From assembly GCA_013350285.1 (NCBI GenBank), contig JAAXWG010000001.1, positions 124,001 to 188,000 of the forward strand: a DNA stretch of 64,000 nt. The letters are read 5' to 3'. The notes beneath the pieces were generated by a model. The model worked only from the letters and a program-made list of their open reading frames with translations. It had not been told where the DNA came from and searched no databases. Position 1 is the stretch's first letter, and every line of letters starts with the position of its first letter. The stretch is from Candidatus Altimarinota bacterium (GTDB taxonomy: Bacteria; Patescibacteriota; Gracilibacteria; BD1-5; UBA6164). The position numbers and the translations under genes are program-made. This document shows positions 21,324 to 43,915 of the stretch, piece after piece.

Positions 21324-21376
21324 AATTATAAAAAAGAAAATAATCCATACATAATTACATCATATTTTTTATAAAA

Positions 21377-21404
21377 TTGCAAAATTTGTCCTTTTTTTTA
21401 TAAT
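21377..21404 (+). promoter_or_regulatory. Putative promoter of the prepilin peptidase gene
   Basis: TTGCAA (21377-21382) and TATAAT (21399-21404) with a 16-nt spacer. A second overlapping pair, TTGTCC (21386-21391) and TATAAT (21408-21413), has the same spacing. Located 25-60 nt upstream of the ATG at 21439. Confidence 0.45.
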
Positions 21405-21438
21405 TTCTATAATTTATAATCTTCTAGAAGACAAGAAA

Positions 21439-22770: not shown

Positions 22771-23659
22771 TAGGAATAAATTCATCCCATCCATAAAGTT
22801 CTGGATATTCTTTCCAAGGACCTTCGCAAACTTTGTTTTTAAGACACTTTTTACAGTTTTCTCATTTCGCTTTTCCTTCACTCCATCTATAATCATTATA
22901 ACTTTCAGTTCTATATTCTGCATCTATCACTGTTGTTTCGGGCATAAAATTATATTCAGCAATAGCCCATTCATATCACTGCATAAGACAAAAAGGGATT
23001 GCTTCTGTCATACAAATAACATTATATTTTTTACCAATATCAAGAGCCTTTTTTATGTAAGGAATAATTTCTGTTTTTGTTGGAACTATTTCTTTTTTAT
23101 TTTTTTCTGCACTTCCTAAAATATGAACAAAGGCAAACTGAAATTGACTTACTCAAAGTTTGCAAAGAAGGAGAGCAAGAGCTGGAATTTCCGTGTAATT
23201 TTGCTTTGTAATTACAGAGTTTATAATTATATTTTGTTTTAGTTCTCTTAAGTTTTTAATTCCTTGTATCACTTGTTCCCAAGCTCATGGTGAACCAACA
23301 AGTATATCGTGAGTTTCCTTTTTAAAACCATGAATAGAAGGTCAAAATTCTGTTACTCATGCATGTATTAACTCTTTAACATACTCTTTATTTGAAAAAT
23401 TTCTTCCATTTGACTGAATTTGTAGAATATTATATCAAAGATTTCTCGCATATAAAACAGATGCTATTAAATCTTTATGAAGAGTTGGTTCTCATCATGT
23501 AAAAACGACTCACTTACAGCCATTTTTATACTCATTCTCAAGGATTTTTTTTATTTCTTCAAAACTTCTTTGTTTATAATGCAGTCTTTTATCTCATTGG
23601 ACACAAAACTTACAATGATTATTACAAGCAAAACCTACTTTTATATCTGCTCTTTTCAT
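22757..23659 (-). CDS. Radical SAM protein (short, single C-terminal Cys cluster) 1
   Basis: A 300-aa radical SAM enzyme and the last gene of the minus-strand run. The 4Fe-4S/SAM motif CNNHCKFC lies at residues about 12-19, followed by VVFTGGEPTLHKDL (the GGEP SAM-binding motif), GPSIHGFKKETHD and IINSVITKQN. It ends with CKKCLKNKVCEGPWKEYPEL, a single auxiliary cluster of 'CxxC.....C.G..KEY' type, then GWDEFIPI. The closest relative in the window is the next gene, sharing IIPTKTE and EAIPFCxMQGYE. Likely substrate: a peptide or other cluster product; not known. Confidence 0.8.
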
Positions 23660-23665
23660 AAATTA

Positions 23666-24562
23666 TTAATTTATAGGTATAAATTCGTCCCATCAAAATA
23701 AATCTGGATATTCCTTCCAAGGACCTTCACATTTATAAAACATTATACATGTTTTACATTTTTCTTGCTTTCTTTTCCCTTGATTTTTTCTATAATCATT
23801 AAAACTATTCAAAATATAAGCTTCATCAAAAACTGATGTTTCTACTAAATATTGTTCCGTAAGAGCATATTCATATCATTGCATAAAACAAAAAGGTATC
23901 GCCTCTGTTCTAGCTTCTATTCATGCTTCCCTTGCAATATCCAATCACATCTTTATATAAGGCATTACTTCTGTTTTTGTTGGAATAATTTCTCTCCAAT
24001 TTTTCATTGCACTCCCTCATATATGAGGAAAAGCAAATTGAAAATAATTTACTTTTAATTTTACTAAAAATAAAGCTAATTTAGGAATTTCTTTATAATT
24101 TTGTTTGGTAATAACAGAATTTATAATAACTTTTTGTCATAATTTTTTTAAATTCATTATTCATAATACTACTTTTTCCCAAGCTCAAGAAGTTTTAACA
24201 AGAAAGTCATGTGTTTCTTTTTTAAATCAATGAATAGATGGTTCAAATAAATTAGCTCATGCAGATACTAATGCCTTACATAAATTAATATTTGAAAAAT
24301 TTTGACCATTAGATTGTATATTAATTGATAAATATCAAAGTGATTTTGCATATCTAATCGTAGGAATAAGTGTATTATGGAGAGTTGGCTCTCATCCTGT
24401 AATAGTAAGAAATCTAGCCTTTTTTTGAAATTCATTATATAAAATATTTTTTATTTCATCTAAAGTCCTTGGAATATATTTTTTTCTCTTCTCTTCTCAT
24501 TGGATACAAAAATCACAATTATTATTACAAATATATCAAATCTTTAAATCTAATTTTTTCAT
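23666..24562 (-). CDS. Radical SAM protein (short, single C-terminal Cys cluster) 2
   Basis: A 298-aa close paralogue of the previous gene. CNNNCDFC is near residues 12-19, then ITGGEPTLHNTL, EPSIHGFKKETHD, VIINSVITKQNYKEIP, EAIPFCFMQGYEYA and a terminal CKTCIMFYKCEGPWKEYPDL with GWDEFIPIN. The six-base spacing and shared blocks indicate a tandem duplication followed by divergence. The same class of enzyme recurs upstream in the run. Confidence 0.8.
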
Positions 24563-24565
24563 ATA

Positions 24566-25510
24566 TTAAGCTTTAATTTTTTTTATAATATTTTCTTTTT
24601 CATCCTTATTTATTTTTTGAGGAACTACTTTTATATAATTATAATACTTATCTTTTTCATATACTCAAGCACAAATAGAATTTAAATCACAATTATTACA
24701 TTCTAGAAATTTATCATGTATAAAATCAGCTCATTTATCATTTATAGTTTCTCTAAAATCAAGAAAATAAACAAGTCTTTCTTCATTTTTTATTATTTTC
24801 CTCGTCTCTGTAGAAGCATATTCATATCCTCGCATAAAACAAAGAGGAAATCTTTCTACTCTAAAGGTCCTTCATGATAATTCTAAGAATTTCATAGCAT
24901 GGATAAGACTTAGAGAAGCAATATCAAAATCTGGAAGTGTAGAAAGAGCTATTTTTGTCTGTCTCATCATAAGTGGATCAAGATTATTCCAGACAAAATG
25001 TGTAATATTTGGAAAATTTTTTACAATAAATTTTGTGGTTTTATCAAGATGATTTTGATTATATTTATTAATAACACTATTAATTTGTACATTTATTCAT
25101 AAGCTCAAAGCATTTTGAATAGCTAATAAAACTTTTTTATAACTTCAAGGAGTATCTGTAAGAAAATCATGAATTTTAGGAATATAGGAATAGAGAGAAA
25201 AATGAATCAAAGAAAGTCATACATCTTTTAATTTTTGCATATATTCACAATCTGCACACATCATTCCATTTGAAATAACACGACATTCTAATCATTTTTT
25301 ATTGGAATATTTTATCCATAAAGAAAGATTTGGTGAAAGAGTTGGTTCTCATCAAGTAAATATAACTCCATCATAGTTTTTAGACAGAAAATCATCTATA
25401 AGCTCAATTCCTCTTTCATAAGTAATATCAGCACCATTTGAAGGATTAGAACAAAAATGGCATTTATTATTACAATATCTATTTACTTGAATATATCAAA
25501 TATTTGCCAT
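24566..25510 (-). CDS. Radical SAM protein (short, single C-terminal Cys cluster) 3
   Basis: A 314-aa protein. CNNKCHFCSNPSNG sits at residues about 13-20, with VIFTGGEPTLSPNL and VISNGMM following. The middle (IHFSLYSYIPKIHDFLT, VQINSVINKYN, FPLCFMRGYEYAS) parallels the two preceding genes at lower similarity. The C-terminal cluster is CNNCDLNSICAGVYEKDK. The ATG is followed by UGA at codon 5, read as Gly. Only 3 bp separate it from the next gene, so it is cotranscribed. Confidence 0.78.
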
Positions 25511-25518
25511 AAGAAATT

Positions 25519-26808
25519 TTATTTAATTGCTTTTAAAATACTAAATCAATAAGCTCGTATAAAATTTATATGAATTCATTCACATTCATTATTATATTTG
25601 CAATCCTTACAAGATAAAGATTTTTTTCTATAAAGATTTGTTATATATTTTTCTGTATAATCTTCTAAAGTATAATTTCAATCCATATCATCATAAGTTT
25701 GATACATTCAACTTCAAAAAAGACATTTCGGAATATTTATAAGTATATTTCATTTTTCTTTCTCTTGTTTTAAAAAAGTTATAAAATTTTCTTTATTTTC
25801 TCAAAATTCTTTATAAATATCACTCACAAAATTTTTTGATTTTATAAAAACTAATCTGTTATCTGATTTTTTATCTTTTATATTTTTTATTCCTTTATAT
25901 TTTAAAAAATTATGGCAATAATCTTTTTGAAAACAATATTCACAAGTATCTCAAAAACATTGTGGTTTTTGTTTTCATTTTGAAGAAATAAATATATCAA
26001 ATACCTCTCTTCATTCTCACATTACCTCTGATTTTATTTTTTTTGGATCTTGTATTAAATCTTCATATCATTCAAATGCTTCTGCTGGAAATCTATTTGT
26101 CCACATATACATTCATGAAATTCGTGAAAGCTTCCAAGTTTCTCTTAAATAAGCTATATTTTCTTTTATATTATAAAAAAGTCTCTTTTTATTTTGTGGA
26201 AAAAATGCTCTCCCAAAAGGAATAATTTGAAGAATATCAAATTCATATACTCCTAATTTTAGGAAAAACTTTATAATATCTGGAAGAAAAACTACATTTA
26301 TTTTATTTACAACTATATCTATATTTATAATAATTTTAGGGAAATTTTTCTTGATATGAATAAGTCAAGAAAGCGATTTTTTAAAAGCTCAAGGAGTTGC
26401 TACAAGATAGTCATGTAAAGTTTCATTATGTCCGTGAAAAGAAAAAGTTATTTCTTCAAGTCAAGCATCTATAACTTTTTTTACAAATTCTTGATTTCAA
26501 AACATCACTCAATTTGTAATAGTCTGAACTCTATCATATCCAATTTCTTTTGCATATCCTATATATTCGGAAAAAAATGGATTAATACTTGCTTCTCATC
26601 AAGAAATAATAACTCTATTTTCATATCAAGATTTAAATCCGTCTTTTATCTGTTTTTTTATAAGCTTTTCTTCTACAAAAGTACCATTATGAGAATAGGA
26701 ATCAAGACAAAAAATACAATTATTATTACAAACATTGCTTATTCTTACCCATACACGATTTTGTTTTACTGCTTTTTCTTTAAAAAGAAGTATTTCATTA
26801 TTTTCCAT
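25519..26808 (-). CDS. Radical SAM protein with extended C-terminus and two Cys clusters
   Basis: A 429-aa protein, longer than its neighbours. WVRISNVCNNNCIFCLDSYS carries the SAM cluster at residues about 27-34, then VIISGGEASINPFF and ITNGVMFGNQ. Two auxiliary Cys groups follow: CFGDTCEYCFQKDYCHNF near residue 290 and the terminal CKDCKYNNECEGIH. The layout recalls SPASM/twitch radical SAM enzymes that bind extra Fe-S clusters for peptide modification. Its start overlaps the end of the PEP-synthase-like ATP-binding gene by 11 bp. It could fill the HxsC role, but I cannot assign it. Confidence 0.75.
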
Positions 26809-27532
26809 TTGTTGTTATATTTCTAGTTTGTAATATATATATATCATTATTTTTAACTGTAAATTCTATATCTTGAGGATATCAAAAAATTTTTTCTATA
26901 TCTAAAGTCATTTTCAATAAATTATTTTTTATTTCCATAAATTTAGATTCATAATCTATAATTATATATTTTTTTAATATCTTTCATTCATTATTAAGAA
27001 AAAAACTAAAATTCTCTATATAAATATCATCAATAATAAAATTATCAAAATTATTTCTATCAAATAAATATATATTTGGAGAGACTATTCAATCTGTAAG
27101 AGGGAAATTTAATCAAGGAATAAATTCTATTCTTATATATTTTTTTTCATATTTTGAAAATATAACTCAACTAATATCTCAAACTATAAATTCTTGAATT
27201 ATATAATTATGTATAATATTTGCAGAAGCTAATTCTTTTGGTTTATAAATATCAAGTTTTTTTCAATCTGGACATAGTTTCTTATTTTTTATTATTGATT
27301 TTAGATCTTTTTTACTATTTATAGGATAATATGAATGGAAAATTCCAGCAAAAGAATATTTATCTCCATCTTCTCAAGAAAAAGAACTTCTAAGAATAAG
27401 AGGAAACTGTAAATTTATTTTATATTTTTCTTTATCACTATATATATAAAATTTAGGAATATTAAATCATTTTTTTTCTAATAAGAGAATTTTATCATAT
27501 TTATTTCAATATCATAATTCTTTTTTTGTCAT
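26798..27532 (-). CDS. PEP-synthase-like ATP-binding (PPDK_N) protein, split partner A
   Basis: A 244-aa protein matching only the nucleotide-binding domain of phosphoenolpyruvate synthase/PPDK-type phosphotransferases. LILRSSFSGEDGDKYSFAGI is the 'R.S...ED...SFAG.F' motif, IIQEFIVGDISGVIFS follows, and DIEFTVKNNDIYILQTRNIT is the closing 'D.E......lyiLQ.R.IT' motif. In the full enzymes this domain uses ATP to phosphorylate a swivelling His domain. Here that domain is encoded by the next gene upstream, which overlaps this one by 32 bp. The acceptor substrate is unknown; the PEP/pyruvate barrel is absent. Confidence 0.75.
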
Positions 27533-28520
27533 AATTAATTTTTAATTTAACTAAATTTCATATTCATAAAATAGTTTTATCTGCTCACAATATAAATGGA
27601 ATTCCCATTTCTTTTGCTATTATAGCTGTATGACTTAATTCTGAATTTGAAGTGGAAATTATTAAATCAAATTCTAAAATTTTATTAATATTATTAATAT
27701 TAAAATCTTTTGTTATAAGAACTCTTTTTTTTCAAATCCAAGTTTCTTCATAATTTTTATCTAAAATAGATTCTTGATATCCTAAGAAAATAATATTTTC
27801 TTTATTGGTATTAAATTCTTTTTTAAAATAAATTACATCAATATTATTTTTACTAGAATCTAGCAAGTTTCAAATAGTATTATATCATTTATCTAAGAGT
27901 ATCTTAATTAATCTTAATTTACTCCTAAGTAAAAGAATATTATAACTATTTCTATTAATTAGTAAAAATTTATATTCTTCATTTTCTATTTTTTTGAGAT
28001 ATTCTCTTAATTTAAGTTCATTTTTATACTCATTTATATATGAATTATAAGATATCTTTAAATTTTGAAATCTATTTATTAGTTTGATTATCTCATAAAA
28101 ATCTTTTACAAAATCTTTTTCTATATTTGATATTAAATTACTTATATTTTTCAAGGAAGATATATCTTTAGAAAGACTGATATCAAATCTAAAAATATTA
28201 ATTCAATTTAAGGATATTATTTCTCAAAAATTTTTCTTAGGAATAAATTCTATATCAAGTGCTATATTCTTTAATATTTCAAGATAAATTTTATTATCTT
28301 GAGGAAAATATACCGAACGATTATTTCATTCTATAAATAAATGAGTATTACTGAAATTGAAATAATTAAAATAATTTTCTATAAAAACATCATTTTTAAA
28401 TTTTTCATATAAACAAAAAATCTTTATTATATCAACTCAAGAATATGCTAATTTTTTATTATTAAACTCTTTAAGAGAAAGAAGGGTTCTTAATAATCAT
28501 AATTTTTTATTTATATTCAT
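27501..28520 (-). CDS. PEP-synthase-like phosphohistidine domain protein, split partner B
   Basis: A 339-aa protein. The first about 240 residues are helical, Lys/Asn/Ile-rich and unrecognised. Residues about 250-330 form a PEP-utiliser mobile domain: VLITKDF, then LIISTSNSELSHTAIIAKEM with the phospho-acceptor His in SHTAI, then GIPFILGADK. It overlaps and presumably pairs with the ATP-binding partner, which together resemble rifampin phosphotransferase or PEP synthase without a standard third domain. The unrecognised N-terminal region might bind the acceptor. Confidence 0.7.
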
Positions 28521-28531
28521 TTATTTTTCTA

Positions 28532-29956
28532 TTACCATTTAATATCTTTTTCCCAATGATTACTTTCAATACTACTTCTTATTTTATTTCTTCAAACAAT
28601 AAACATACAATAGAGCATTCTCATTTTTTTATTTGTCTCTAGAAAAATAATAAAATCCTCCTCTATTATTATTTTTTTCAGAAACAACAAAATATCTAAT
28701 TCTTTTTGAAATTCATTTAATATATCAATTCAGTATAAATGATAAAAATATTTTCTAGAAATTTTATCACAATCTCTAAAAGAGGTAAGGATAGTTTTTT
28801 CCATTTCATCTCTTTTAGTTAATCTACTTCATAAATATATTTTATCATTAGGAAAAAAATCATAAATAATTTTTTTTTCTCATTCGTAAATTATTTTTCC
28901 TTCTCTATAACTTCTTGCTGTTGGTCAAAATCAAAACAAATTAATGCTTTCCTCGGTAATATCTCAATATCAATATTTTTGCCTACTTTTGACATAAATA
29001 TTATTTTTCAAAGTCCAAGCATGATCATAAATATCTAATTTATTAAGATAAGTGAAATTATATCTTCCAGCTATTGGGGGAATAATTTTTTTTAATAAAC
29101 CTGAGAATTGGGTATACCATCAATTATAAAATTCATTTTTATTAATTCCATAATGTTTTTTTAAATAATATTCATTTGTTATTAAACCATATATATTAAT
29201 TTTTGAAACTCATAAACTACATAAAGTTTCTAAAGTATAAGAAAATTTTTCTATAGTATCTCATCTTAGTCATCTTATTAAATGAATAATTAAATCATCA
29301 AAATCATATTTTTTCACCAATTGAATTGCTTCTCTCAATTTATCTTCAGTATCAAGTGCTCTATTCATATTATCTAAAACTTCATTATCAAGAGATTGTA
29401 CTCAAAAATGAATTGTTTCAAATCATACTTTTTTTATTGCTCTTAATTTATCTTCATTAGTACTACTTGGTCGAAACTCTATTCCTTTATAAGAAAAATC
29501 ATCAAATTCAAACAGAGAAAATAATTTTCAAAAAAGTTTTTCAATTTGTTGGGCTGATAATATACTTGGAGTTCATCATCAAACAGATAAACATTTAAAT
29601 ATAGATCAATTAAAAGCTGGAGCATAAAATTCCATTTGTTTTATAAGATAATTAATATATTTTTCCAATATTTCCTCTTTGTTCTTTATTAAAAGTTGCT
29701 TATAATAAACACAAAAATCACAAAATTCTTCACAAAAAGGAATATGTATATACATTTCTAATTTATTTGAAGTAATTCATTTTTTTATATCTTCTCAGAT
29801 TCTTTCCCATTCTCTATATATATCAAAGGAAGAAAATACATTTTTAACTTTTGAACGAGTAAGATAAAGAATATCATAATGATCTAATTTATTTAAAAAT
29901 TTATCAAAATATACCAAATCTCTTTTTAAAATAATTAATTCTTTATTTGTTAACAT
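28532..29956 (-). CDS. HemN/HemW-like radical SAM protein 1
   Basis: A 474-aa protein. YIHIPFCEEFCDFCVYYKQ carries the CxxxCxxC motif around residues 95-102 and matches the 'HIPFC...C.fC' signature of coproporphyrinogen-oxidase-like radical SAM proteins. LSVGGGTPSILSAQQIEKLF and IHFGVQSLDNEVLDNMNRAL are the other HemN-family landmarks. It lacks the fourth Cys of true HemN (CxxxCxxCxC). A C-terminal domain of about 150 residues follows. Such proteins include haem chaperones and methyl or alkyl transferases; the substrate here is unknown. One of four HemN-like genes in the run. Confidence 0.8.
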
Positions 29957-29974: not shown

Positions 29975-30922
29975 TTATATTCAAAATTCTCAATCTCAAT
30001 AAATCTCTTTATATTCTTTCCATACTCATTGACAAGAATGATTATATTTACAAGACTCACAAACTTTTAATTTTGTTTTTAATTCATTTTTTTTTCTCTC
30101 CACCCAATTAAATTCATCTGAAGTATTTATATTATCAACACTTGTAATATAATCTTTATCTTCTCATACAAATTTTTTTATTATGCTTTCCATATCTTGA
30201 ATTCATAATTTAAAAAAAATACATAGAGGAATTGCATCAAAAGTTATTCGTATGTCTTTTTTAAAAGAAATATAAATTAATTTCTTTAAATAGGGAAGAA
30301 ACTCTGTATAAGAAATTTTTAACTTATCCCGATTATCCTCTATATCTTCAGATAACCAAATAAAATTGATTCTTATATCCTTTATATTTTTTTTATAAAA
30401 AAAATATAAAACAGATTCAGTAATTGTTTCATAATTTATTTTATTTATAACCATATTTATTGAAAGAGGAGAATTAAGAAGTCAATTCTGTATTAATATA
30501 TTTAAATTATCAATTGCTTTTAATTTTCTTTTTAGGCCTCAAGGAACAGAAGTGAGATAATCTTCTATAGTATTGATATGAGAATGTATGGAAATATTAA
30601 ATCTTGTTGATCCTGCTTTTACTATCTTTGTAAGAAAACCAATATCATCAAATCGCATACTATTAGAAATAATATTTATACTTCTAAAATTTTTTTCTCT
30701 ACAATATAAAATTATTTCTTCCAAGTCAGGATATATAGAAATATCTCATCATAAAAATCAAATTGATTTATATCAATTTTCTTCATAAAAATCTACCTTT
30801 TTTTTTAGTAATTCCTTTTTAACAAAAATTTTATCAGATTTTTTTGCTTGGGAACTCATACAAAACTTACATTTATTATTACAAGCTTTTCAAATATTAA
30901 TTTCTATGTGTTTTAAATTCAT
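29975..30922 (-). CDS. Radical SAM protein (short, single C-terminal Cys cluster) 4
   Basis: A 315-aa protein. IGKACNNKCKFCMSSQA holds the SAM cluster at residues about 13-20, FLGGDISIYPDL is the GGEP-equivalent (Asp for Glu), and FNISIHSHINTIEDYLT follows. It ends with CESCKYNHSCQGVWKEYKEI, then YGDGEFGI. It resembles the later gene at 33659-34588, with shared FLGGxxSIxP, SIHSHI and SxNMVINKIN. The start overlaps the end of the next upstream gene by 26 bp, indicating tight coupling. Confidence 0.78.
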
Positions 30923-31826
30923 TACAAAAATTATTTAATAATAAATCTATATATTTTACAGATACTAAAACACTTTTATTATATTCTATTTCTAAAATTG
31001 ATGAAATTTTATTTATATAATCCTTTATAAAAACATTATTTTGAATATCAAATATTAATCAATTAAAAACATCTCAAATTTTTAAGTCTTTTTTATACTT
31101 TTTAAATTTTCAAGATAATATCAAATTTGTTCAATATATATTTCAATCTGTATCAATTATAATACCTAGGTTAAAAAAAGAAATATCACTATAATTTTCC
31201 AAATTTATAAGCTCAAAATCATTTCATTTTTTATAAAAATCATATATTTCATCAAATCATTTTTTCAAATTTACAAGTCAATTCTTAGTCCATTTTATAT
31301 AGTAGGCTGGTAAAAAATTAAATTTTCTTACTCATAAATCATATATATATGTGAAATTTTTGAAAAAATTAATTGAATTCTTTGGTGTAATTACTTGATT
31401 TATTTTCACAAAATTAGAATATATTTTTGTATTATTTATTATCTGTTCTGATAAGTTATCTCCATGAGCTAAAATCCTATTTTCTCTATTCGTGTCTAAA
31501 TCTCAATCTATACTAAAAGTTATCTCTATATTATTTTCTCTAGCAAAAATCATAAAATCATTATCTATTAGAGTAGAATTTGTAGTTATATAAAAATTTG
31601 TATTATACTTTTTAGGAAAATTATTTATTATAAATTTTATAAAATCTTTTTTTAATAATGGTTCTCCCCCAAAAAATTTTATTTTATTTATTAAAAAATT
31701 ATTTCTTTCAAAAAAAATAAAACTTTGATTAATTACATCTATTGAAATATTATTATTATGTTTATAAACATCACAATATTTACAACGAAAATTACAATCA
31801 TAAGTAAGTATATAAATAATATTCAT
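30897..31826 (-). CDS. Radical SAM protein, SPASM/anSME-like N-terminal half
   Basis: A 309-aa protein. The start is MNIIYILTYDCNFRCKYCDV with the cluster motif at residues about 11-18, close to peptide-modifying and anaerobic sulfatase-maturase types. FFGGEPLLKKDFIKFIINNF and FYITTNSTLID follow, then EITFSIDGDLDTNRENR. No C-terminal Cys cluster of the kind in its neighbours is seen, so it may carry only the SAM cluster. The gene is extremely AT-rich. It is separated by one base from the previous gene in the run. Confidence 0.75.
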
Positions 31827-31827
31827 C

Positions 31828-32739
31828 CTAAAATTTATAATAATCTAAATATTTATAAAAAACTCAAGTACAAGGTCTCATTTTCCATTTACATCCTTCA
31901 CATTTTCAGACAAAACACCTTGCTCTTGAATTATTAAAACTATACACATCTTTTAAAATAATTTTTCCATCTTTCGTTTTCAATCTCTCTATTGTATTTC
32001 TTTTTTCCCAATGTGAATCATTTGAATAGTCTACTAAATTATCTCATAAAATACAAAGTGGTAATCAAAAAAATCTTAATACCTTTTGTTTTTCGTTACA
32101 TAATTTTACAATTTTTGGAATATATAATTTAAATTCTTCCAAATTAAAAACAAGTTTTTTATAATTAATTTCTGCTCTTCATTCAGGAGCTAAAATAGAA
32201 ACAAGTACTTGCTTAAAACTATAACCTTGTTCCATTACAAATCTTATTATATTTTCAATATCAAAGTAATTATATTTATTTATTACTATATTTAAGAAAA
32301 AAAGATTATTATTTTTTTTATACTTTTCTATATTTACTACTATTTTTTGAAAATTTCTATAATGATATTTTAGTCAAACTTGTTTCTCACAAGTTTCTTC
32401 ACTATACCAATGTACTGATAAAGAAAGTTCATCTATATATTTTAAAGCTTCTTGAGTAAATTTTTCTGAAGAAAACATCGTTCAATTGGTTCAAATATAT
32501 ATCTTATAACCAAGATTTTTTGTAAATAGAAGTAAATCTAAAAATCATGGAATAATTGTTGGCTCTCATCAAGTAAAATTAATATGATTAAATCCTTTTT
32601 TCTTCCTATCAATTAATATAATTTTTATTTCTGAAAAAGAAAGTGGATATATTTTAAATTTATCCATTCTTTCATATTCACTACAAAAGATACAATTATG
32701 GGAACAAATATATGAGATGTGAAATTCTAATCTTTTCAT
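31828..32739 (-). CDS. Radical SAM protein (short, single C-terminal Cys cluster) 5
   Basis: A 303-aa protein. MKRLEFHISYICSHNCIFCS places the cluster at residues about 12-19. NFTGGEPTIIPGFLDLLLFT, LSLSVHWYSEETCEKQV, LNIVINKYNYFDIENI and FFGLPLCILGDNLVD follow in the order seen in its relatives. The C-terminal cluster is CEGCKWKMRPCTGVFYKY. The alignment of blocks with genes at 22757, 32743 and 33659 shows a common ancestor. Substrate unknown. Confidence 0.78.
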
Positions 32740-32742
32740 TTT

Positions 32743-33654
32743 TTAATAACTATTAATACAATTGATTCATTTACTTCCATAGAGTTCTTTATATTCTTTC
32801 CAAATTCAGTTACAAAGTCATTTATAAATACACTTCTCACATTCTTTAATATATATTTTATTATTATCTTTCTTAATAATTCAAGAATCTATTAACATTT
32901 TATTTTCAATCACTTCAATGCAATTTACATTATATTTATCCCATCACATAATACAAATTGGTAATCAACAATAAGGATTATTTACAACAAATCATAAATT
33001 ATAAACATAATCCAAAATTCAAAACAAATCCTTGTTTATGGTTTCATAATCAAGCATCAAATTAATATTTTTTTTTGCTTTTCCATGTGGCTGAATAAAT
33101 GATAGGGAAATATATTTTACAAAAGGAAATTCTTCTTTTACAAAATCAAAATAGTCTTTTAATTCTTTATAATTTTTTTTACTGATTACTGGATTTAATA
33201 TAACTTCTATATTTTTATATTTTCAAAGATTTTTTATATTACTTACTACCTTAGGAAAAATTCATTTCAATCAAACATAGTTTTCAAATATTTCTTGTTT
33301 ATGTGAATGAAATGAAATAAAAAACTTATTTATTCCATTTTTTATTAATTTTTCTGCTCTATCATTAAATAAAAGACTAGCATTTGTCTGCATTTCTATT
33401 GAATTTACTCATAATTTTTTTATTCATAAAACAATAAGTTCAATATCTTTTCTTAATAATGGCTCACCTCAAGATAGACTTATCTTTATGTCTTTTTTTC
33501 CTTCTCTTTTTATAATTTGCTTTACCAAAAAAAGTATTTCAAAAATACTCTTTTCTTTAAAATTTGGCTCTGTTTCTTGTGTTACATTACAAAAAGAACA
33601 TTTTTCATTACAAGCTATATTAAGCCTAATCAAATATGAACGAATATTATTCAT
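32743..33654 (-). CDS. Radical SAM protein (short, single C-terminal Cys cluster) 6
   Basis: A 303-aa protein. RLNIACNEKCSFCNVTQETE carries the cluster, with ISLSGGEPLLRKDIELIVLG, MQTNASLLFND and FFISFHSHKQEIFENYVG after it. The terminal cluster is CEKCIYKGLCNGIWKEYKEL, then YGSKGINCI. The ATG at 33654 is chosen because it puts the SAM motif at residues 14-21, as in its relatives. A GTG 17 codons upstream (33705) would overlap the preceding gene. Four bp separate it from that gene. Confidence 0.78.
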
Positions 33655-33658
33655 AATT

Positions 33659-34588
33659 TTATTTAATTTTATAATAATCAATGTATCTGTTCCATATTCC
33701 TTCACAATCTCATTTTAAAAAACAATAATTACATTTTGATATATAATCCTTCACTCTTCATCTATCCCATTTTTGACTAATAATATCTCTTGTTATAAAA
33801 TCAATATCATCTCTTGATAACTTATATTTTTCCTTATCTATGCTTTGTTCAGAGTATTTCAAAAAATCAAAATAATCGAGTCAAGAAAAACACCAAGGAA
33901 TAGACTCAAAATTTATTCTTATATCATTATGTTGATTCGCTAGATTTAATATATCCTTTAAATATGGAAGAAATTCTTCATATCTTAATGCTAATATAGA
34001 ATAATTTTTTGTACTTGTTCACTCAAGTTGAATAAAATTTATACGGAATGATCTTACTCATTTTTTATATAAAAATAATATTGTATCTTTTATTTCTCTG
34101 AAATTAATTTTACTTATAACCATATTAACAGAAAGTTCCCTTTTGAGAAATCAATTTTTATAAAGATTGATTATATTTTCTAGAGATTGTATTTTTTTAT
34201 CTAATATTCATATAATTCCTCACGATAAAAATTCTTCCTTTTTTGAAATATGGGAATGTATAGAAAGAGAAATTCTTGTTAATCAATCTTTTATAGCTTG
34301 CAATAAAAATTTTTTATTATGAAAAGTAGATGCATTAGAAATTACTTCAATATTTTGAAAATTATTTTCCTTTGCATAAAAAAGAAGATCAAGAAAATAT
34401 GGATGAATAGTTGGTTCTCATCAAAGAAATCCTATAGAATTATATCATTTGCTTGAAAGTAAACTTATCTCCTTTTCTATAAGTTCTTTAGATTCAAATC
34501 CTCTTATTTTTTCTCTTGTAATTCAAGACATACAAAAAATACATTTATGATTACAAGAAAGTCCTAAGTTTAATTCTACATGTTTCAT
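33659..34588 (-). CDS. Radical SAM protein (short, single C-terminal Cys cluster) 7
   Basis: A 309-aa protein. MKHVELNLGLSCNHKCIFCM sets the cluster at residues about 12-19. GFLGGEPTIHPYFLDLLFYA, RISLSIHSHISKKEEFLSGG and LSVNMVISKINFREIKDT follow, with the terminal CNYCFLKGDCEGIWNRYIDY. It is the closest relative of the gene at 29975-30922. A 105-bp gap upstream is the largest inside this part of the run and could hold a promoter, but no convincing one was found. Confidence 0.78.
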
Positions 34589-34693: not shown

Positions 34694-36052
34694 TTATTTA
34701 TAAACAATAGATAAAGTATCTTTAAATTCTTTAACATAATCTTTATCTTCATTATATGAAAATTTATCTAAAATCACTTTTATATTTTCTTCTGAATAAA
34801 ATATTTTTGAAAAAAGTAATTTTTCGAAAACATTATTAATTTTTGTTTTAAAATAATTACCTCTTATTTCTAAGATATTATTTACTTCTAAAAATTTAAT
34901 TTCAAATTTATATAATTCTAGGAAATCAATTCAAAATTTCTCATTTAAAATTTTTATATCAAAACCATCTCTAAAATGTGAAATAATATATCTTGATATA
35001 TAATCTTTTGTTTCTAATTTAATTCACATATATACAGTATTAGATTCATTATACATATCATATCATGTAAAATACATAAGATTTTTATGTATATATGACC
35101 TTGTAGGGTATCAAAATCATAGTATAGAACAATTATTAATTATTTTATCAACTTCTTGTTCATTTCTTGCACTATCATTCTTTCACCAAGAATCATTCTC
35201 TACTCAATAATATCAATATTTCTCTATCAATTTCACTCATAGCTCATACATTAAATCTCTGTTTTTTATATCATTTTCTGTATAAATAAATCATTTTTTA
35301 TAAAATAATGTATCTTCCGATGGTCTAAAAGGATAAAGATGAATCATATCAGGATTCATCTGAATAATTCTTCTAAGATTTAATAAAAAATTTTTTAAAT
35401 TTTCTCAAGGAATTCAAGGCATCAAATCAATATTTATATTTTCTATTCAATACTTTCTTATCCAAGAAAATATATTTTCAAGTTTATCCCATGTCTGAAA
35501 TCTACCATTAACCCTTAATGACTCTAAAGTCATTGTTTGAATTCAAATAGTTACCCTAGAAACTCAATAATTTTTAAGAATTTTTACTTTTTCCTCTGTC
35601 ATTGTGTGAGGACTTATTTCAAAATTCCACTGAGCTTTTTCTTCAAAAGAATATAATTTTCTAATACTTGATAAAATTTTTTTTAGTTGTTCTGTATTAT
35701 ATATTGACGGAGTTCATCATCAAAAATAGGCATGATTTAACTTAATATTACTAAAAATTGCTGAAAAATAAGTAAATTCTTTTATAATTCTAGAAATATA
35801 AATATCTAAAGTAGTTCATCATACTACCTTTTCACTTCAACAACTACAAAAAAGACATTTTGATTCACAAAATGGAGTATGAAGATAAAATCATAATTTC
35901 TTATGTATGAAATAATCATTTTCTATATAATTTTTCCAATTTTTAGAAACAATACTTTTAGAAATATTTCTTGCTATATCTTGAGGAGGATATATATTTC
36001 ATCATGATGTATGTAAACAAATGAAAGCCAATTTATTAAGATTTATTTCCAT
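34694..36052 (-). CDS. HemN-like radical SAM protein 2 (CxxxCxxCxC)
   Basis: A 452-aa protein. YLHTPFCESKCLFCSC contains the full CxxxCxxCxC arrangement of HemN/HemW-family enzymes near residues 60-69. HAYFGGGTPSIYNTEQLKKI and VTIGIQTMTLESLRVNG are the family's SAM-binding landmarks, and INIDLMPGIPGENLKNFLLN follows. The C-terminal about 150 residues resemble a HemN-type domain. Its paralogue is the next gene upstream, which overlaps its start by 17 bp. Haem biosynthesis is unlikely from context; a role in the peptide cluster is inferred. Confidence 0.8.
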
Positions 36053-37334
36053 ATTTCTCTTTTATTTTATTCATTACATTTCTTGAAAAAAATATAGTAT
36101 TTAATATTATATTATCTATTTTTTCAAAGTTTATTTTAATTTCTTCATCCGAAACAATAATACATTCTTTTCAAAATTTATTTATAAGAATTTTTATTTT
36201 ATTTCCATAATCACATAAAAAATCACTTCAAAATATATTTTTATACTGCTTAAAGGATAATCAATCTATTAAATTTTGCAAAACATATCTATGTTTTTCT
36301 TCAATTAAATCATAAGAATATCATATATATGAAGAATTAGTATATATATTCTCATTGTATACTCAAGAATTAACATAAGATATTTTTCAAAAAATATTGC
36401 TTCTTGCCGTATATCAAAATCCAATATTAGAACTTGCATTTTCTATTCTTTCAACTATTGTCATATTTCTCGCATCCATAGAAAATCAAAAATCATCATT
36501 TCTTAACTTTTTTCTTCAACTCTTTAATAAAATTTTTATTCCATATTGATACATTTTTTCTCTTAAATCAATATCATATTGAGTGTATTTCTTTCATAGT
36601 TTAGAAAAATTTGTCGTTTCAGAAGGATTAAAGCGATACAGGTGAATTATATCAGGATTGAGTAAAATTATTTTTTTCAATCAAGTAGAAAAACTTTCAA
36701 AAGTTTCTCACTCTAATCAACAAACAATATCAATATTAAGAAAATCTATATTATTTTTTACATAATATATTATTTCATATAAATTATTTTCATCTTGTAT
36801 TCTATTATTATTAACAAGAACTCAAGAATTAAGACTTTGAACTCAAAGTGACAATCTAGAAACTCAAAAATTTTTGAGAATATCTATTTTTTCATAATCT
36901 AAAGTTTCTGGCATTGCTTCAAAACAAAAAGGAACTTTTATCATAAAGTTAAACTCTCAAAATAAAAACCATAGAAAATCTTTTAATTGAGTATTCGATA
37001 ATATTGAGGGAGTTCCTCATCAAAAGTAAATATTAGAAATCTTCTTATTTTTAAATAATGGAGAAAAATAAAGTATTTCTTTTTTTAAATCATTTAAATA
37101 AGCATTTATTTTTTCATTACTAGCAATAAGACTATTACAATGACAAAAATTACATTTCGTTCTACAAAAAGGAATATGAATATAAAGTCATATTTTATTA
37201 TCAACTCAAGATTCTATATAATCATTCCAATAACTATAAATTTCTTTCTTTTTAATAGGAAAATATATTTCCATTGGAGGGTACATATTATCTCTTCATA
37301 GTATCTTTCTAAATATATTTAAAGTTTTATTCAT
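36036..37334 (-). CDS. HemN-like radical SAM protein 3 (CxxxCxxCxC)
   Basis: A 432-aa paralogue of the previous gene. YIHIPFCRTKCNFCHCNS carries CxxxCxxCxC, then IYFGGGTPSILSNTQLKDFL, LSLGVQSLNSGVLVNNNR and LNIDIVCGLEGETFESFSTG. Both begin with a stretch containing YPP (NMYPPMEIYFP here, GIYPPQDIARN in the partner), a shared N-terminal feature. RYxSY-type aromatic blocks later (NIGFGYTARSNIFGKISYVN) parallel GFGYPTRSYIHKNLMYFTG of the partner. The pair may work together. Confidence 0.8.
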
Positions 37335-37355: not shown

Positions 37356-39302
37356 TTAATAAATTTTAAGATAAGATAAATTAATATCATTAATAAAATT
37401 TTCATTCATATAAAATCAATTTAAGTAAAGATTTAATACATTTGAAAAAGAAGATGCCTTGATATCATTACTAAAAAATCATAATTTGGAATAATTATTT
37501 ATTAAATATTTAAAATAATTATCCTTAGAATTTATAAAATAATAATATATTTTTGATTTTTTAATTTTATAAATTATATGACTATCTATATATCCTATTC
37601 AAGATTCTCAAAAGGCAATTATATTAGAATTTTCTTTCTTTCTAAATTCAATTATATATTTAGAATCATCACTTGTTTCTAAAACATCTCTATTTTTCTC
37701 TATAATATTAGAAAAATACTTATTTTTAAGTAATAAATTATCAAAAACATCATTCATTCAATATTTTTTTATAAATCAATCATTAAAGAAAGGTCTATAA
37801 TTATTCTCTTGAATAAATATTTTCATAAAAGAATTATTGTATTTCTTTAATATATCAGAAAATTCTTTTATATCATTTAGAAAAATATTTTCTCAATATC
37901 AAAAAGGAAATCACCGTAAAAAATCAAGTTCAAGGGTAATATTCTTTTCTTTTTCTTTAGAAAGAACATACATATCACTTATTATTCTATATACATCTTT
38001 TTTATTTTGAAATCTGTTTAGGTATTTTTTATTATAATTATTATCAAATGTCTGGATTCAAAATAAAAAACAATTTACTCAAGAATCTATCATTTTCTCT
38101 AATATAGATTTTGATAATCCATTATGAGGAAATAATTCAATTGTAAATTCTTTTACACCTTTATTTAAATTACTATTTATAAAATCTATAAAATCTAATA
38201 AAAGAAAATGATTTAAGTTCCAAGTACCTCATCAAAGATAAATATTATCAATATTATAGTTATCAATTAAAGATTTATTATTTTCAAAATCCATTTTTAA
38301 TCAATGAATATAATTATTTATAGTTTCCTTAGAAGTTCAAATATTTGAGTATATATAACAAAAATTACACTTACTAAAACAAAAAGGAAAATGAAAATAA
38401 AGTTGGGTAGAATAATTGTTTTTAGAATTAACTATATCAACTAATTTACTATCCGTAATATTATATTTTTCTTGTAAATAAGAATCATATGGATATTGTT
38501 CAGAAAGTCCTTTTCCAGCATAAAAAGAGTTTAAAAAACTATGTATTTCTATTTTATTCTTATATTTCAAAATAAAATTTGAAATATCTAGATTTAAAAT
38601 TGATATAAATTTTTTCTTCAAATTCATTAGAAATTTTAATCTTCTAGGGTAAATATTTTTTAAAATATTTTTTACATAATTTTCTCACTTTATATTATAT
38701 AGTATTGCTATATCATAAAAATCAATTGGTGCTTTTATATCAAGTCATAAAAAATAAGTCTCTTCTCAAATTATATTATTATCATAAATAATTCATTTCA
38801 ACCACCTTTTATTCTTTTCTATTTCAAAATCTAAATATTCTAGTATTTTAAAAAATAGATATTTATTTTTTTTTAAAATCGCAACAATTAAATTATTATC
38901 TAATTGGTATAAAAAATCCTCACTAAAGAAAAAAGATTCTATTTTTGAGAAATCTTTTTCTAAAATAGAATTATCAAATATATGAAATAATACTATAATA
39001 TTATTCTCTATATTAAAATTATTTTTATAAACTAGTACATTTTTTTGATAGGATTTTATAATATTTTTTGGGTTCTCATATATTATAAATACTTGTTCAA
39101 AATAATTGCTTTTCTTCAATAATATATAGTCCTCACATCATCATATATAAGTATTTCATCAAGAAATATGAATATTTTTTCATACATTTTTTACTTTCTT
39201 TAACTCTTTTTTTATAAGAGAATCATCTTCAGAAGAAAGATAATATGATAAATTACCTATATATTTAACATTAAGTTGGTTTAAAGATATAATAGTAGAC
39301 AT
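37356..39302 (-). CDS. HemN-like radical SAM protein 4 with about 225-residue N-terminal extension
   Basis: One 648-aa frame, although an internal ATG at 38627 makes it look like two genes; no stop lies between them. Residues about 1-225 are an unrecognised domain (ISGGNTYIGGCEDYI, ILEYLDFEIEKNKRWLKG, YIPRRLK-like end). Residues about 310-500 are a HemN-like core: YFHFPFCFSKCNFCYIY, YLGGGTGTWNLNHF and FLFGIQTFDNNYNKKYLNRF, followed by LELDFLRGFPFGYGENIF. It lacks the fourth Cys. The N-terminal half could bind the substrate peptide, but this is speculation. Confidence 0.7.
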
Positions 39303-39307
39303 ATTTT

Positions 39308-40375
39308 TTAATTAATTTCTAATCCTTTTATATATAAATGAAATGGGTCTTCATATAAACTACAAATATCCCTAAGAGATAAGAATTCTTTATGTAAAAT
39401 TTCTTTTTTATTATAAAATAATCTTTTTATTATCTTTTCTCTATAATTTTTATTCCAAGTGGAAAATAAATTTTTATCAAATATATATTTTTCTATATCC
39501 AAATAACTCTCTAAAATATTTATATTTGAAATAAAAAACTCATCCTTTATATCCGATAGGTTAAAAAAATCTGGACACACAATGTTATATATATCTCAAT
39601 TAGGTTTAAGAGATATAACAGGGGTAACTCAAATATCAACTATTTGAACTAAAAAATCTCAATAAAAGTTTTTAATAAAAGTTTTTAATAATTTTATCCT
39701 TTCCATTGTATTTTTAAATAAATTAATTTTTTTTTCTTTATCTATAAAATCAAAATTTCCATTTACATCTTGTTCTAAAATAAATGTTATATTCTTTAAT
39801 CATAACTTAAATAAAAAGGAAAGTGAATCAAAATAATTAATATTTTCATATGTAAGAGGAATAACTGAAGAAAGAGAAATTCATAAATTTAAGTATTCTT
39901 TTTGATAAAATTTTAATAAAAAAATATTTTCAACTATTTTATTAAAATCTGAATTAAGCATTTTTCTATTTATAAAATTATTATTAAAATCTCAATCCAG
40001 ACTAATAGTTATATTTATAAATAAATATGGATTATTTTGAAGTAAATTCAATATTTTTTCTATAAAAGATTTATTTAAAAGTATTCCATTAGTAGAAATA
40101 TCAACTTTAAAAAATTTCTTCTTAAAAATAATTAAAGATGATATTTTATTAAGAAGATATAATAATCTATCTTTATATAAAAAAGGTTCTCATCAATAAA
40201 TGTTAATACTATAAAAATTATTTAATATATAATCTCCTAATTTAGAAAAAAAAGAATCTATTATTGCCTCTGATATAAAATATCATTTTGTATGCTTTTG
40301 TGAACAATAAGAACAAGATAAATTACAATCTTTAGTTATATAAATAAAAATTTCTTCAAAAAATTTAATATTCAT
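39308..40375 (-). CDS. Radical SAM protein, SPASM-type family (anSME-like)
   Basis: A 355-aa protein. FIYITKDCNLSCSYCSQ carries CxxxCxxC at residues about 16-23. INIYGGEPFLYKDRLLYLLN (both Gly encoded by UGA), VDISTNGILLNKS and ITISLDGDFNNNFINR follow, typical of peptide-modifying radical SAM enzymes. Near residue 260 VSLKPNGDIYNIVCPDF recalls the start of a SPASM domain, with one Cys. It lies between the membrane protein gene next to the precursor and the long HemN-like gene. Confidence 0.75.
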
Positions 40376-40377
40376 AT

Positions 40378-41076
40378 TTATAGATTATAACATTTTTCTA
40401 AAAATAATTTATTCACCTTCTTTTTATATCCTTCTTCTCATAAATTTAATAATAATTTACCTCGCTCTATAGCACCTATTTTAAATATATCTTCTGATAA
40501 AGAAGATCAAGTAGATTCATGTATAAATAATTCAAAAGTACTATTACAGTCTTCTATTGATTCTAATTGTCCTAAACTCTTACATTTATTTTTTCAATTT
40601 ATAAAAGAATCTAATAAAATATAATTAAATGAATTTTTATCCACTTTTGCTAATTTTATATCTTTCTGTTTATAAGCTTCACAAAAAAATTTTTCTTCTA
40701 CTTTTTCAAATTTATCACATAATCACTGTTTTAAATTAACTAATACAGTATATTCATTTTTCTCAATAACTAACAATGCATTTTTATATTCATTAACTAG
40801 ATTTCACTCATTTTCATCTAAATATTTTGATTTATTTCATTTTATAATATTTTGACATTCTCTCTCTAAATCTTCTTGAGTAAATTCTTTTTCTTTTTCT
40901 ATTATTAAAAATCAAGTTGAATCAAAACTTCAAGTATTAGATTTAGAAATAACAACACTTCAAGTTGATAATCGTTCTAATCTTGAATTATTTCTATTTC
41001 TAAAAGAAATAGAAATAATAATTATTAAAGCTATAAATAAGAAAATAAAAACAAATAATCAATATAATTTTTTCAT
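40378..41076 (-). CDS. Membrane-anchored hypothetical protein beside the precursor gene
   Basis: A 232-aa protein. MKKLYGLFVFIFLFIALIII at the N-terminus is a single transmembrane signal anchor. The rest is a soluble, Lys/Glu/Asn-rich domain with six or more Cys (ECQNIIKG, LCDKFEKVEEKFFCEAYK, NKCKSLGQLESIEDCNS, LEKCYNL). Paired Cys suggest disulphides, so the domain is probably outside the membrane. No family recognised. Its position directly after the His-rich precursor (25 bp gap) points to a role in export, anchoring or immunity for the modified product. Confidence 0.6.
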
Positions 41077-41101: not shown

Positions 41102-41626
41102 TTACCGTTGTCCATGACTTCCATGACTTCCATGACTTCCATGACTTCCATGACTTCCATGACTTCCATGACTAGAATGTCAAGGATCAGCACTCGCATG
41201 CCAATTAGCCAATCTAGCAACATCAATAGTTCCTCAATTAGGAGTTCAACTATAATGTCAATTTACTAATCAACTACTATGGCTTGTTAATGTGCCATTT
41301 GCATGTCACCCATTCCATATACATTCACCATTATAGTGTCATGGATCAACACTACTATGTCATCATCGAGCATTATTATCATGACTTCAATGATTACTAT
41401 GAGAAGGAGCATAATTAACATGTCATCAAGCTGGTCAAGTTGAACTACAATGTCAACCATTTGTATGTCAAGAATTAGCATGTACAGCATTAACCAAATC
41501 TATTGAAGATAACAATAATCATCAAACAGATAATCCTAATGCATCTTTTTTACTAATTTTTCCACTTTCATCTGTAAGAAAACCTTTAATCTTTTTTGTG
41601 ATTTTTGGAAATATTTTTTTTGTCAT
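41102..41626 (-). CDS. hxsA: His/Gly/Ser-rich precursor protein, HxsA-like
   Basis: A 174-aa protein with a Lys-rich leader (residues 1-30, KITKKIKGFLTDESGKISKK), a hydrophobic segment ALGLSVGGLLLSSIDLVNAV (29-48), and a His-rich core from about residue 49. The core has 21 His, mostly in GGH, NGGH, DPGH and SHG contexts, and ends with HSS, seven SHG units and QR. This gives His-Xaa-Ser spacing, the defining feature of HxsA precursors. Seventeen codons are UGA, so it is unreadable in the standard code. The HxsB-like and HxsD-like genes lie just upstream. The HxsA name is inferred from composition and neighbours. Confidence 0.65.
41111..41173 (-). repeat. Seven tandem 9-bp coding repeats (Ser-His-Gly)
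   Basis: AGTCATGGA repeated seven times without variation at the 3' end of the precursor gene. It is frame-neutral, so copy number could change by slippage without breaking the protein. Confidence 0.95.
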
Positions 41627-41653: not shown

Positions 41654-43147
41654 TTAAGAAGGATTAGAACATTCTCAATTTAATAGCCCTCATTTTATTC
41701 AATTTGTCCAATTTTCAAAAACTTTTTTTACTTCTTTATCTCTCATATTACCAAAAATAAAATCAAGTATCATGCTATCAAGTTTTCTTTTTTCATCTTT
41801 CATAAAATTTGGATATAAGCTTCCATTTACTTTATAAGAATTTATAGGACAAACTCCAATATAAGATTTATAAACATTTTCATTATATCAAGGAAGTCCG
41901 TCAAGAGTTGATGCCTGAACCATAATTTTTGTTGTTTCACTTTCTATCATTACTTTATAAGTATCACTTCATGTTTCTTGTAATTTTGCCATCATAAAAT
42001 TATCATCCCCCATTCTTCCAAGCATTCTTCCTTCATCACAACTATAAATCTTTCCATCATAATTATAAGCAACTTGCCCTATACAAGCACCACAAGGACT
42101 TCTATTATCCATAAAATTAGGATCTTTAGGATGAAATATTTTTGCAAGGTAAATATTTGTCAATTGCTCACAAAATAATACTCCGTTTTTATTAAGTTCT
42201 ATAATATATTCCATTGAATTTTTATAAAAATCAAAAAAATCTTCCGAAGAATATCAAAGATTTTTTAAATCAACTTCTGCAAATCCATAAGGATTAAGTG
42301 AACGAATAAATATACTATCAAGTCCAAGTTCCACATAAGTATCTATAATTTCTTTATATTTTGGAAGTGCTTTTTTTGTAACAGTTAAAAGTGCTCACAT
42401 TTTTTTATCAAATCCCCTTTTTTTATATTCCTCATTAATTCTTTTTATCCAATAAGTAACTTGTTCAAAACTATTTCCTCATAAAAAAACTCTATTATAA
42501 TTATGAATTTCTTCATCTCAATCTAAAGATGAAGAAATAGAAATATTATTTTGTATCAAAAAATCTAATTTATCTTCATTCATAAGAGTAAGATTTGTCA
42601 CTAATGAAAAAAATACCTTTTTTCATAAATGAAAAGATCGTATCTGAGCTTGTTCTACTATATATTTTGTCACTTCCCAATTAGCAAGAGATTCCCCTCA
42701 TTGAAATTCTATTGTTATTCACGGTGATGAAGTATGAAAAATGGTATCAAGAACTCCATCAGCCGTTTCTTTTGTCATATCCATATCATGAGCTTCCATA
42801 GGAGCAACCGCCGCATGACAATATTGACACTTATGATTACATCTAAGAGTCGTTACAATAATATGAAGAGACGGTCCATAAGCAAGGAAATGATTTTTTG
42901 TAGCATAAGCTTGTGCCATATCATTTTCAAACCCTTCTTTTTTTATAAATCAATTTTTTAATAATTCTTCATATTTTTCTCAAGACTCAATTTTCCCTTC
43001 AATAAAAAGAGAAAATTCTTCTTTTGTGAGGAAACTATATTTTCCAATATCATTGGTTATAAGATAAGTATTTTCATCAAATTTTTTAAAGCGGAAAAAA
43101 GCTATTTTTTCACTTCTTAAATTTTTAATTTTTTCTATAGATAGCAT
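41654..43147 (-). CDS. hxsB: Radical SAM/SPASM maturase, HxsB-like
   Basis: A 497-aa protein. An N-terminal domain (FFRFKKFDENTYLITNDIG, FLTKEEFSLFIEGKI) resembles the leader-binding start of HxsB maturases. LHIIVTTLRCNHKCQYCHAA holds CxxxCxxC at residues 103-110, followed by IEFQGGESLANWEVTKYIVE, FFSLVTNLTLMNEDKL and ISSSLDGDEEIHNYNR. A SPASM-like C-terminus has CGACIGQVAYNYDGKIYSCD, then VCPINSYKV and a final CSNPS. It would modify the adjacent His-rich precursor. Base composition is less AT-rich than most of the run. Confidence 0.7.
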
Positions 43148-43161
43148 AAAAATAAGGTTAA

Positions 43162-43362
43162 TTACAAACTTTCATTATATAAGGCAAGAACATAATTCAT
43201 AAATTCATTAAAAATTTCTTCTTGTTCTTGTTCGTTTTCTCAAAATATAAAAACTTGTCAATTATCATAAGTAATATCATAATCACTAAAATCTTCTATT
43301 GCCTTATTGATAATATCAATTGGATATAAACTAATCTCTATTTTGAAATTTTTTTTTCACAT
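43162..43362 (-). CDS. Short HxsD-like protein (66 aa)
   Basis: MGKKNFKIEISLYPIDIIN, then KAIEDFSDYDITYDNGQVFI and EEIFNEFMNYVLALYNESL. The plan of beta strand, helix with a KA pair, strand, and a terminal 'F.Ny.La' helix parallels the N-terminal domain of HxsD, whose hallmark is an LLNDYxLRE motif. Its ATG lies inside the end of the longer HxsD-like gene (32 bp overlap), so translation is coupled. It precedes the HxsB-like gene by 14 bp. Probably a partner that binds precursor or maturase. Confidence 0.55.
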
Positions 43363-43915
43363 TTTCTATTGCATTAATATCTAAATGAATTTGTGGTTCT
43401 TGCTCTCAAGAAGAAAAATTTATCTCTCCTTCTGTTTCTTCTTCTATTTCTTTCAATATTCTTTGTATTTCCTCTTCATCTATTTTTAAATCAGGATCAT
43501 TTTCTATTTCTCTTAAAATTTCATCAATATCTTTATCAAAATCAATTTCATTTCTTTCTTCTTGTCTTTTTTCTGTGTCTATTTGAATAAAATTATTCAT
43601 ATCAAGACTATTTGCAATTGCTGCTCCAACTATTTTTTCTCTTATTTCTTTATTATCTTTTTCAAGTGTATCTCTCAAATATACAGAAAGTATTTCATCA
43701 CTAAAATCTGCAAGAATTGTTTCTATATTTTCTTCTTGTTCCTTCTTTGTACATTGAAGTATAATATTTCCATCCGTGTCAAGTTTAAAGAAAAAATAAG
43801 CTCTATTAAGAAAATTATAAGCTGCCTTTAAAACGATATTTTGAGAAAAAATATTTGTATCAATGAGAAGTTCAAATTTATTTCACTCAATTACTTCTTT
43901 TAAAAAAGATTCCAT
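43331..43915 (-). CDS. hxsD: HxsD-like protein with acidic extension
   Basis: A 194-aa protein. Residues 1-105 follow the HxsD pattern: FELLIDTNIFSQNIVLKAAY, NFLNRAYFFFKLD, DEILSVYLRDTLEKDNKEIR (compare LLNDYxLRE) and EKIVGAAIANSL. Residues about 120-175 are strongly acidic (DKDIDEILREIENDPDLKID, repeated Glu), probably a flexible or coiled linker not usual for HxsD. HxsD is a small partner of the HxsB/HxsC maturases; its biochemical role is unknown. It starts 20 bp after the pyrophosphatase stop and is likely cotranscribed with it. Confidence 0.6.

Follow-up and report, generated by a model that had tools for sequence, protein, structure and literature searches.

A probable HxsA-type precursor of a divergent His-Xaa-Ser system and its row of radical SAM genes

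Reading frame, composition and genetic code

A small histidine-rich reading frame within a stretch of 64,000 nucleotides from Candidatus Altimarinota bacterium (the whole stretch is called the window here) raised the question of what kind of protein it encodes and what the enzymes encoded beside it may do to that protein. The preliminary description of this DNA had reported 21 His residues, seven perfect Ser-His-Gly repeats and 17 UGA-Gly among 174 codons, and these figures were confirmed by a minus-strand ORF read in NCBI code 25, in which UGA stands for Gly (Table 1). The reading of 41102-41626 in the plus strand is interrupted by stops and was ruled out. The translation, MTKKIFPKITKKIKGFLTDESGKISKKDALGLSVGGLLLSSIDLVNAVHANSGH...LTSHSSGLVNGHYSGTPNGG...(SHG)7QR, also contains 26 Ser, 32 Gly and two Cys, and the tail is encoded by seven perfect 9-bp units of AGTCATGGA. 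Past the leader, 13 HxS motifs were counted versus 3.3 in shuffles (0 of 5000 shuffles reached 13), and six remained when the tail was excluded, versus 1.65 in shuffles (5 of 5000 reached 6).

The use of code 25 in this DNA is independently supported by two comparisons at the sequence level. The P-loop of AtpD in the window has TGA at conserved Gly positions (GGA TGA GCT TGA GTA GGA AAA ACA, i.e. G-G-A-G-V-G-K-T), and TGA codons of hxsB fall on alignment columns where 20/20, 20/20 and 18/20 standard-code homologues have Gly. The 17 TGA codons within the ORF support the claim that standard-code gene callers would miss hxsA. The UGA density, which had also been singled out, turned out not to be special: TGA accounts for 17 of the 32 Gly codons of hxsA (53%) versus 592 of 1091 (54%) in the whole window, and hence it is a by-product of the Gly content, and an enrichment in UGA as a special signal was rejected.

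Gene row and placement in the His-Xaa-Ser system

The ORF, which had been described as a precursor-like protein without catalytic domain, indeed adjoins true HxsB and HxsD genes. It starts 27 bases past hxsB, and hxsB, a gene for a 66-aa protein and hxsD lie directly upstream; the HxsD assignment is borne out by 10 of 10 aligned homologues. The row runs from hxsD to the gene at 22757 and comprises 21 genes, all in one direction and separated by -32 to 105 bases; 15 of them carry CX3CX2C and match radical SAM families. The membrane-anchored protein encoded directly after hxsA has homologues of 31-34% identity at the equivalent place in three other genomes. Toward the far end of the row, the split PPDK_N/PEP-utiliser pair could serve the phosphorylation or activation of something; a pair resembling it closes the cassette of genome G035 (L047:2238-3976). 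After the row, at window positions 18837-22770, there are a prepilin-peptidase-like (A24) gene and a gene for a large surface-type protein, and several Hxs cassettes likewise have genes of these two types at their far end.

Table 1. Positions in the window of hxsA, its parts and the other genes of the row
Feature	Positions	Strand	Length	Remarks
hxsD	43331..43915	minus	194 aa	TIGR03976, 55.8 bits (cut-off 50)
small conserved protein	43162..43362	minus	66 aa	beta-alpha-beta-beta-alpha, HxsD-like topology
hxsB, radical SAM/SPASM-like maturase	41654..43147	minus	497 aa	TIGR03978, 472.8 bits (cut-off 370)
hxsA-type precursor	41626..41102	minus	174 aa	code 25, ATG start, 17 TGA-Gly
hxsA leader	41480..41626	minus	about residues 1-49	Lys-rich, ESG..KKDA block, hydrophobic stretch, small-x-Ala site
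hxsA core motif H-S-S-G-L-V-N-G-H-Y-S	41249..41281	minus	residues 116-126	26-homologue alignment
hxsA tail (SHG)x7	41111..41173	minus		7 perfect 9-bp units
membrane-anchored protein	40378..41076	minus	232 aa	directly after hxsA; no family match
radical SAM enzyme	39308..40375	minus	355 aa	PF04055
radical SAM enzyme, HutW/HemN-like	37356..39302	minus	648 aa	family match
radical SAM enzyme, HemN/STM4012-like	36036..37334	minus	432 aa	family match
radical SAM enzyme, HemN/STM4012-like	34694..36052	minus	452 aa	family match
radical SAM enzyme, HxsC4-like	33659..34588	minus	309 aa	NF038332, 90 bits, below cut-off
radical SAM enzyme, HxsC/MoaA-like	32743..33705	minus		family match
radical SAM enzyme, HxsC-like	31828..32739	minus	303 aa	family match
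radical SAM enzyme, PapB/HxsB-like	30897..31826	minus	309 aa	family match
radical SAM enzyme, HxsC4-like	29975..30922	minus	315 aa	family match
radical SAM enzyme, HemN-like	28532..29956	minus	474 aa	family match
PEP-utilising mobile domain protein	27501..28520	minus		PF00391; half of split dikinase-like pair
PPDK_N ATP-binding protein	26798..27532	minus		PF01326, 67.4 bits; other half of pair
radical SAM enzyme	25519..26808	minus	429 aa	semi-conserved far end, in 20/48 genomes
radical SAM enzyme	24566..25510	minus	314 aa	semi-conserved far end, in 20/48 genomes
radical SAM enzyme, HxsC4-like	23666..24562	minus	298 aa	family match
radical SAM enzyme, HxsC4-like	22757..23659	minus	300 aa	NF038332, 155 bits, below cut-off

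The His-Xaa-Ser system (HxsA/B/C/D), attributed to Haft and Basu (as cited in PMC9062424), is covered by the NCBIfam models TIGR03976-03979. As in that system, true HxsB and HxsD genes accompany a His-x-Ser repeat protein that adjoins the maturase gene, and the RiPP-type features of a conserved leader, a variable core and adjacent modifying enzymes are present. In contrast, the window has no HxsC over the cut-off and its precursor has no TIGR03979 match, and many radical SAM genes and the 66-aa HxsD-like protein are added. No HxsC scored over the 267.9-bit cut-off in any of the 48 family genomes (best, 145.9 bits), and HxsC over the cut-off was equally absent from 18 of 18 genomes of other groups with HxsB loci, most of them with a GSH-type HxsA nearby, so that the missing HxsC does not define the branch. 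Since this holds here and elsewhere, the branch is taken as an HxsA3/A4-type variant rather than as the originally defined four-gene system.

The models for HxsA3 (NF038309; 32.1 bits, E 7e-8, cut-off 65 bits) and HxsA4 (NF038313; 29.4 bits, E 1e-6, cut-off 55 bits) both match the window precursor below their cut-offs, and they match 25 and 18, respectively, of the 26 aligned HxsA homologues. The precursor shares with these families the leader FL..E.GKI.KK and the GSH tail, but it has an inserted variable region (~50-100 aa) with a conserved HxSGxxNGHxS, and it ends in HGQR with no aromatic residue, whereas most HxsA relatives have a C-terminal W or Y. On these sequence criteria we treat it as a divergent relative of HxsA4 and not as a member. 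We hold that the ORF is very probably the HxsA-type precursor of a divergent His-Xaa-Ser system, and the system of the window, as judged from its gene families, forms a divergent branch within a peptide-modification system already known. The literature search returned no HxsB product, no paper on His-Xaa-Ser chemistry and none on HxsA3/HxsA4 or GSH repeats, and radical, histidine and S-adenosyl went unmentioned in some papers on Gracilibacteria/Absconditabacteria.

Among proteins of solved structure, HxsB has relatives of the general radical SAM type only, the nearest in sequence being the thioether maturase CteB/SCIFF (PDB 5WGG, E 7.5e-26); thioether chemistry, however, requires Cys, and HxsA has two Cys only. 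In an alignment of 19 HxsB homologues CX3CX2C is invariant, and the auxiliary-cluster candidates C352, C370, C433 and C493 are replaced by Ser, Ser, Asp and a gap, respectively, in five of the 19. The model of HxsD (core pLDDT about 90) weakly resembles RPB11/Pcc1-like dimer and type III secretion chaperone folds, and a classical winged-helix RRE was not supported by the fold search, where the best E was 4e-3 and pointed to other folds. The 66-aa protein is conserved across loci and was modelled by AlphaFold with a pLDDT of 94.9; its profile matches HxsD weakly but in register, and its own fold search gave weak matches only. These predicted folds suggest that HxsD and the 66-aa protein may form a chaperone-like pair.

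Conservation and distribution of the precursor

Re-annotation in code 25 and a search for homologues, both proposed in the preliminary description, recovered the hxsA ORF and allowed the conservation of HxsA to be analyzed in an alignment of 26 homologues, whose profile was then run on the 48 family genomes. Ten leader columns are invariant in the 26 homologues (P7, K11, F16, E20, S21, G22, K26, K27, D28 and A29), the leader holds the invariant block ..TDESGKI[ST]KKDALG.., and an AxA-like site, by a loose pattern, is present in 26/26. The core motif HxSGxxNGHxS is near-invariant, with S118, N122, G123 and H124 invariant and H116 and S126 conserved in at least 90%. In contrast, the region between leader and tail varies freely in length and composition, and in the loci read HxsA measures 121-241 aa. 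The profile detected HxsA in 35 of the 48 family genomes, and HxsB (35/48, 33 over the cut-off) and HxsD (34/48) have a near-identical distribution.

As to homologues without adjacent radical SAM genes, 34 of the 35 HxsA-positive genomes also have HxsB; in the exception, G008, hxsA lies ~270 bases from a contig end and radical SAM genes lie on its other side, which explains the lone HxsA, since the contig ends just where hxsB would lie. Outside the family, 379 genomes were sampled from the phylum, and only 2 of them have HxsB at E <= 1e-60. In G025 (L031), HxsA is 75% identical to that of the window and HxsB just 56%, a difference that may have arisen if the precursor gene alone was transferred or recombined. 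G041 and G038 (L035 and L036) have a second HxsB, divergent (38-39% identical to that of the window) and with no HxsD or HxsA adjacent, and it adjoins a surface-type protein of 1080-1122 aa.

These conservation data bear on whether HxsA might be a secreted, unmodified or lightly modified His-rich protein that binds Ni, Zn or Cu, the radical SAM genes serving another purpose. Such a function would suit 21 His in 174 aa arranged in dense GSH and GGH arrays, and the longest unbroken [GA]SH run varies freely across species (from 3 to 29 units, with a few precursors lacking a run), as expected of a bulk chelator. Nevertheless, bulk chelation needs neither the non-repetitive HxSGxxNGHxS nor the invariant leader, both of which are kept; the distribution of HxsA tracks that of HxsB and HxsD, and no metal transporter is encoded within the 21-gene row. 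We consider a plain metal-binding function quite unlikely.

Related proteins also occur in other phyla, where a scan of genome contigs with a single protein gave no matches but an alignment-based scan did. Proteins with GSH/ASH arrays and a leader similar to that of the family (FL.SEEGKI.KK) adjoin HxsB in Elusimicrobia, Omnitrophota, Myxococcota, Parcubacteria and Schekmanbacteria, several of these non-family proteins score over the HxsA4 cut-off, and relatives of the 24566 enzyme at about 44% identity lie near HxsB in other phyla. The locus of Schekmanbacteria GWA2_38_11 (L083) has the order hxsD-hxsB-hxsA-membrane protein-radical SAM genes, as in the window, and four of its radical SAM genes are 37-51% alike to the window genes 30897, 22757, 31828 and 29975/33659; it differs from the window in its standard code and in an 87-aa precursor without the core motif.

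The enzyme cassette across the family

At about 30 loci hxsD is immediately followed by the small gene, hxsB and hxsA, frequently right behind the ATP synthase operon, and HxsB in those genomes is mostly 51-69% identical to that of the window. Family-wide, hxsD-hxsB-hxsA forms a fixed head, and the radical SAM pair of the far end is semi-conserved. The genes in between are hypervariable: when 255 downstream genes were clustered at 40% identity, they gave 174 clusters, of which 133 were singletons. The 25519-like and 24566-like genes of the far end recur at about 60-73% identity, and every genome that carries either of them is Hxs-positive (20/35 versus 0/13 for each, Fisher p = 2e-4). The median number of radical SAM genes per genome is 18 with Hxs versus 6 without, with a Mann-Whitney p of 7e-7 that is optimistic because related genomes were treated as independent. 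The preliminary description had missed the hypervariable cassette and the broad occurrence of related GSH proteins, as well as the strand, the 21-gene row with its 15 radical SAM genes and the HxSGxxNGHxS motif; its view of the precursor nature and of the neighbours stood.

Besides radical SAM enzymes, the cassettes encode DegT aminotransferases, asparagine-synthase-like proteins, carbamoyltransferases, 2OG-Fe(II) oxygenases, glycosyltransferases, an epimerase and, in G034, a tryptophan-halogenase-like protein (L045:16420-17733; PF04820, 247 bits). The cassette of G003 holds NifH/CfbC-like (280 bits, below cut-offs) and BchB/nitrogenase-component-1-like proteins (L062:16515-18539), and a nitrogenase-like reductase is unexpected in this reduced genome.

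Two further explanations were weighed against the cassette contents. According to one, HxsA would be a structural surface protein, an adhesin or coat, that the enzymes decorate and whose Gly/Ser/His repeats have a chiefly mechanical function. The signal-peptide-like leader, the prepilin-peptidase-like gene and large surface-type protein after the locus, and the glycosyltransferase, sugar epimerase and aminotransferase genes of cassettes elsewhere would fit this role, but sugar enzymes are fewer than radical SAM enzymes and the small precursor is compatible with a peptide-type product, so that a structural role appears unlikely. According to the other, the product would be a cofactor-like or redox-active modified peptide that serves metabolism and is not secreted. 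Radical SAM/SPASM systems elsewhere yield cofactors such as PQQ and mycofactocin, and the nitrogenase-like genes of G003 would also agree with such a product. Nevertheless, hypervariable cassettes and the fact that about a quarter of the family lacks the system speak against a core metabolic role, and the small-x-Ala site past the hydrophobic stretch against a product that is not secreted; we regard a cofactor as very improbable.

If the cassette enzymes recognised the variable core, similar cores should share cassette genes. In this sample no correlation was found between the similarity of the variable core and the shared cassette genes (partial Mantel r = -0.05, reached by 713 of 1000 permutations). 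The closest relative of the window HxsA is that of G025, yet the fetched cassettes share 0 genes at 40% identity; conversely, G039 and G040 have most of the fetched cassette in common and their cores differ. The Mantel result and the G025 case thus do not show a tight partnership of core and cassette. Cassettes were mostly read ~12 kb beyond hxsA, and since the far end is conserved, sharing is understated; G025 has the far-end pair on another contig, so that part of the cassette is common to the window and G025. Possible explanations are that the enzymes recognise the conserved features of the precursor (leader, HxSGxxNGHxS and tail), that core and cassette are exchanged independently of each other, or that incomplete cassettes mask a link.

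Working model and its meaning

The reading that we favour, and consider likely as a whole, is that HxsA is an exported, heavily tailored RiPP-like protein and the substrate of a divergent His-Xaa-Ser radical SAM system, in a bacterium of Gracilibacteria type that uses code 25. Judging from the spacing, the 21 genes would be co-transcribed. HxsB would bind the invariant block of the leader (around F-L-T-D-E-S-G-K-I-S-K-K-D-A) jointly with HxsD and the 66-aa HxsD-like protein, the latter two acting as a pair of escort proteins. HxsB would then act on the repeated His-x-Ser units of the core motif and the tail and, given that it is a SPASM-like radical SAM enzyme, the likeliest product would be a His/Ser-centred C-H modification (cross-link, epimerisation or oxidation). 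Species-specific radical SAM and other enzymes would add further modifications. Finally, the hydrophobic segment with its small-x-Ala site would direct Sec export and removal of the leader, and the modified His/Gly/Ser-rich protein would be exposed at or beyond the cell surface.

A more far-reaching proposal, which we put forward tentatively and hold to be possible rather than probable, is that a fixed exported scaffold (leader, HxSGxxNGHxS core and GSH tail) is chemically diversified from species to species through exchange of the tailoring enzymes (up to ~15, radical SAM and others) that lie between conserved ends. This would amount to a RiPP-like surface chemistry of combinatorial type, whose logic would be analogous to that of variable surface glycans. 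The bacteria concerned are tiny, have reduced genomes and are probably host-dependent.

The His-Xaa-Ser system, whose original paper reportedly dates from 2011, has been known from sequence for years, and here it appears in very small genomes that devote 15 radical SAM genes to a single operon, at a locus that is wholly invisible to standard-code annotation. The unusual feature is that so large and changeable a set of enzymes surrounds a small, fixed scaffold in reduced genomes. The family thus offers dozens of natural experiments in which one precursor scaffold meets different enzyme sets, which makes the order and the site of the reactions testable.
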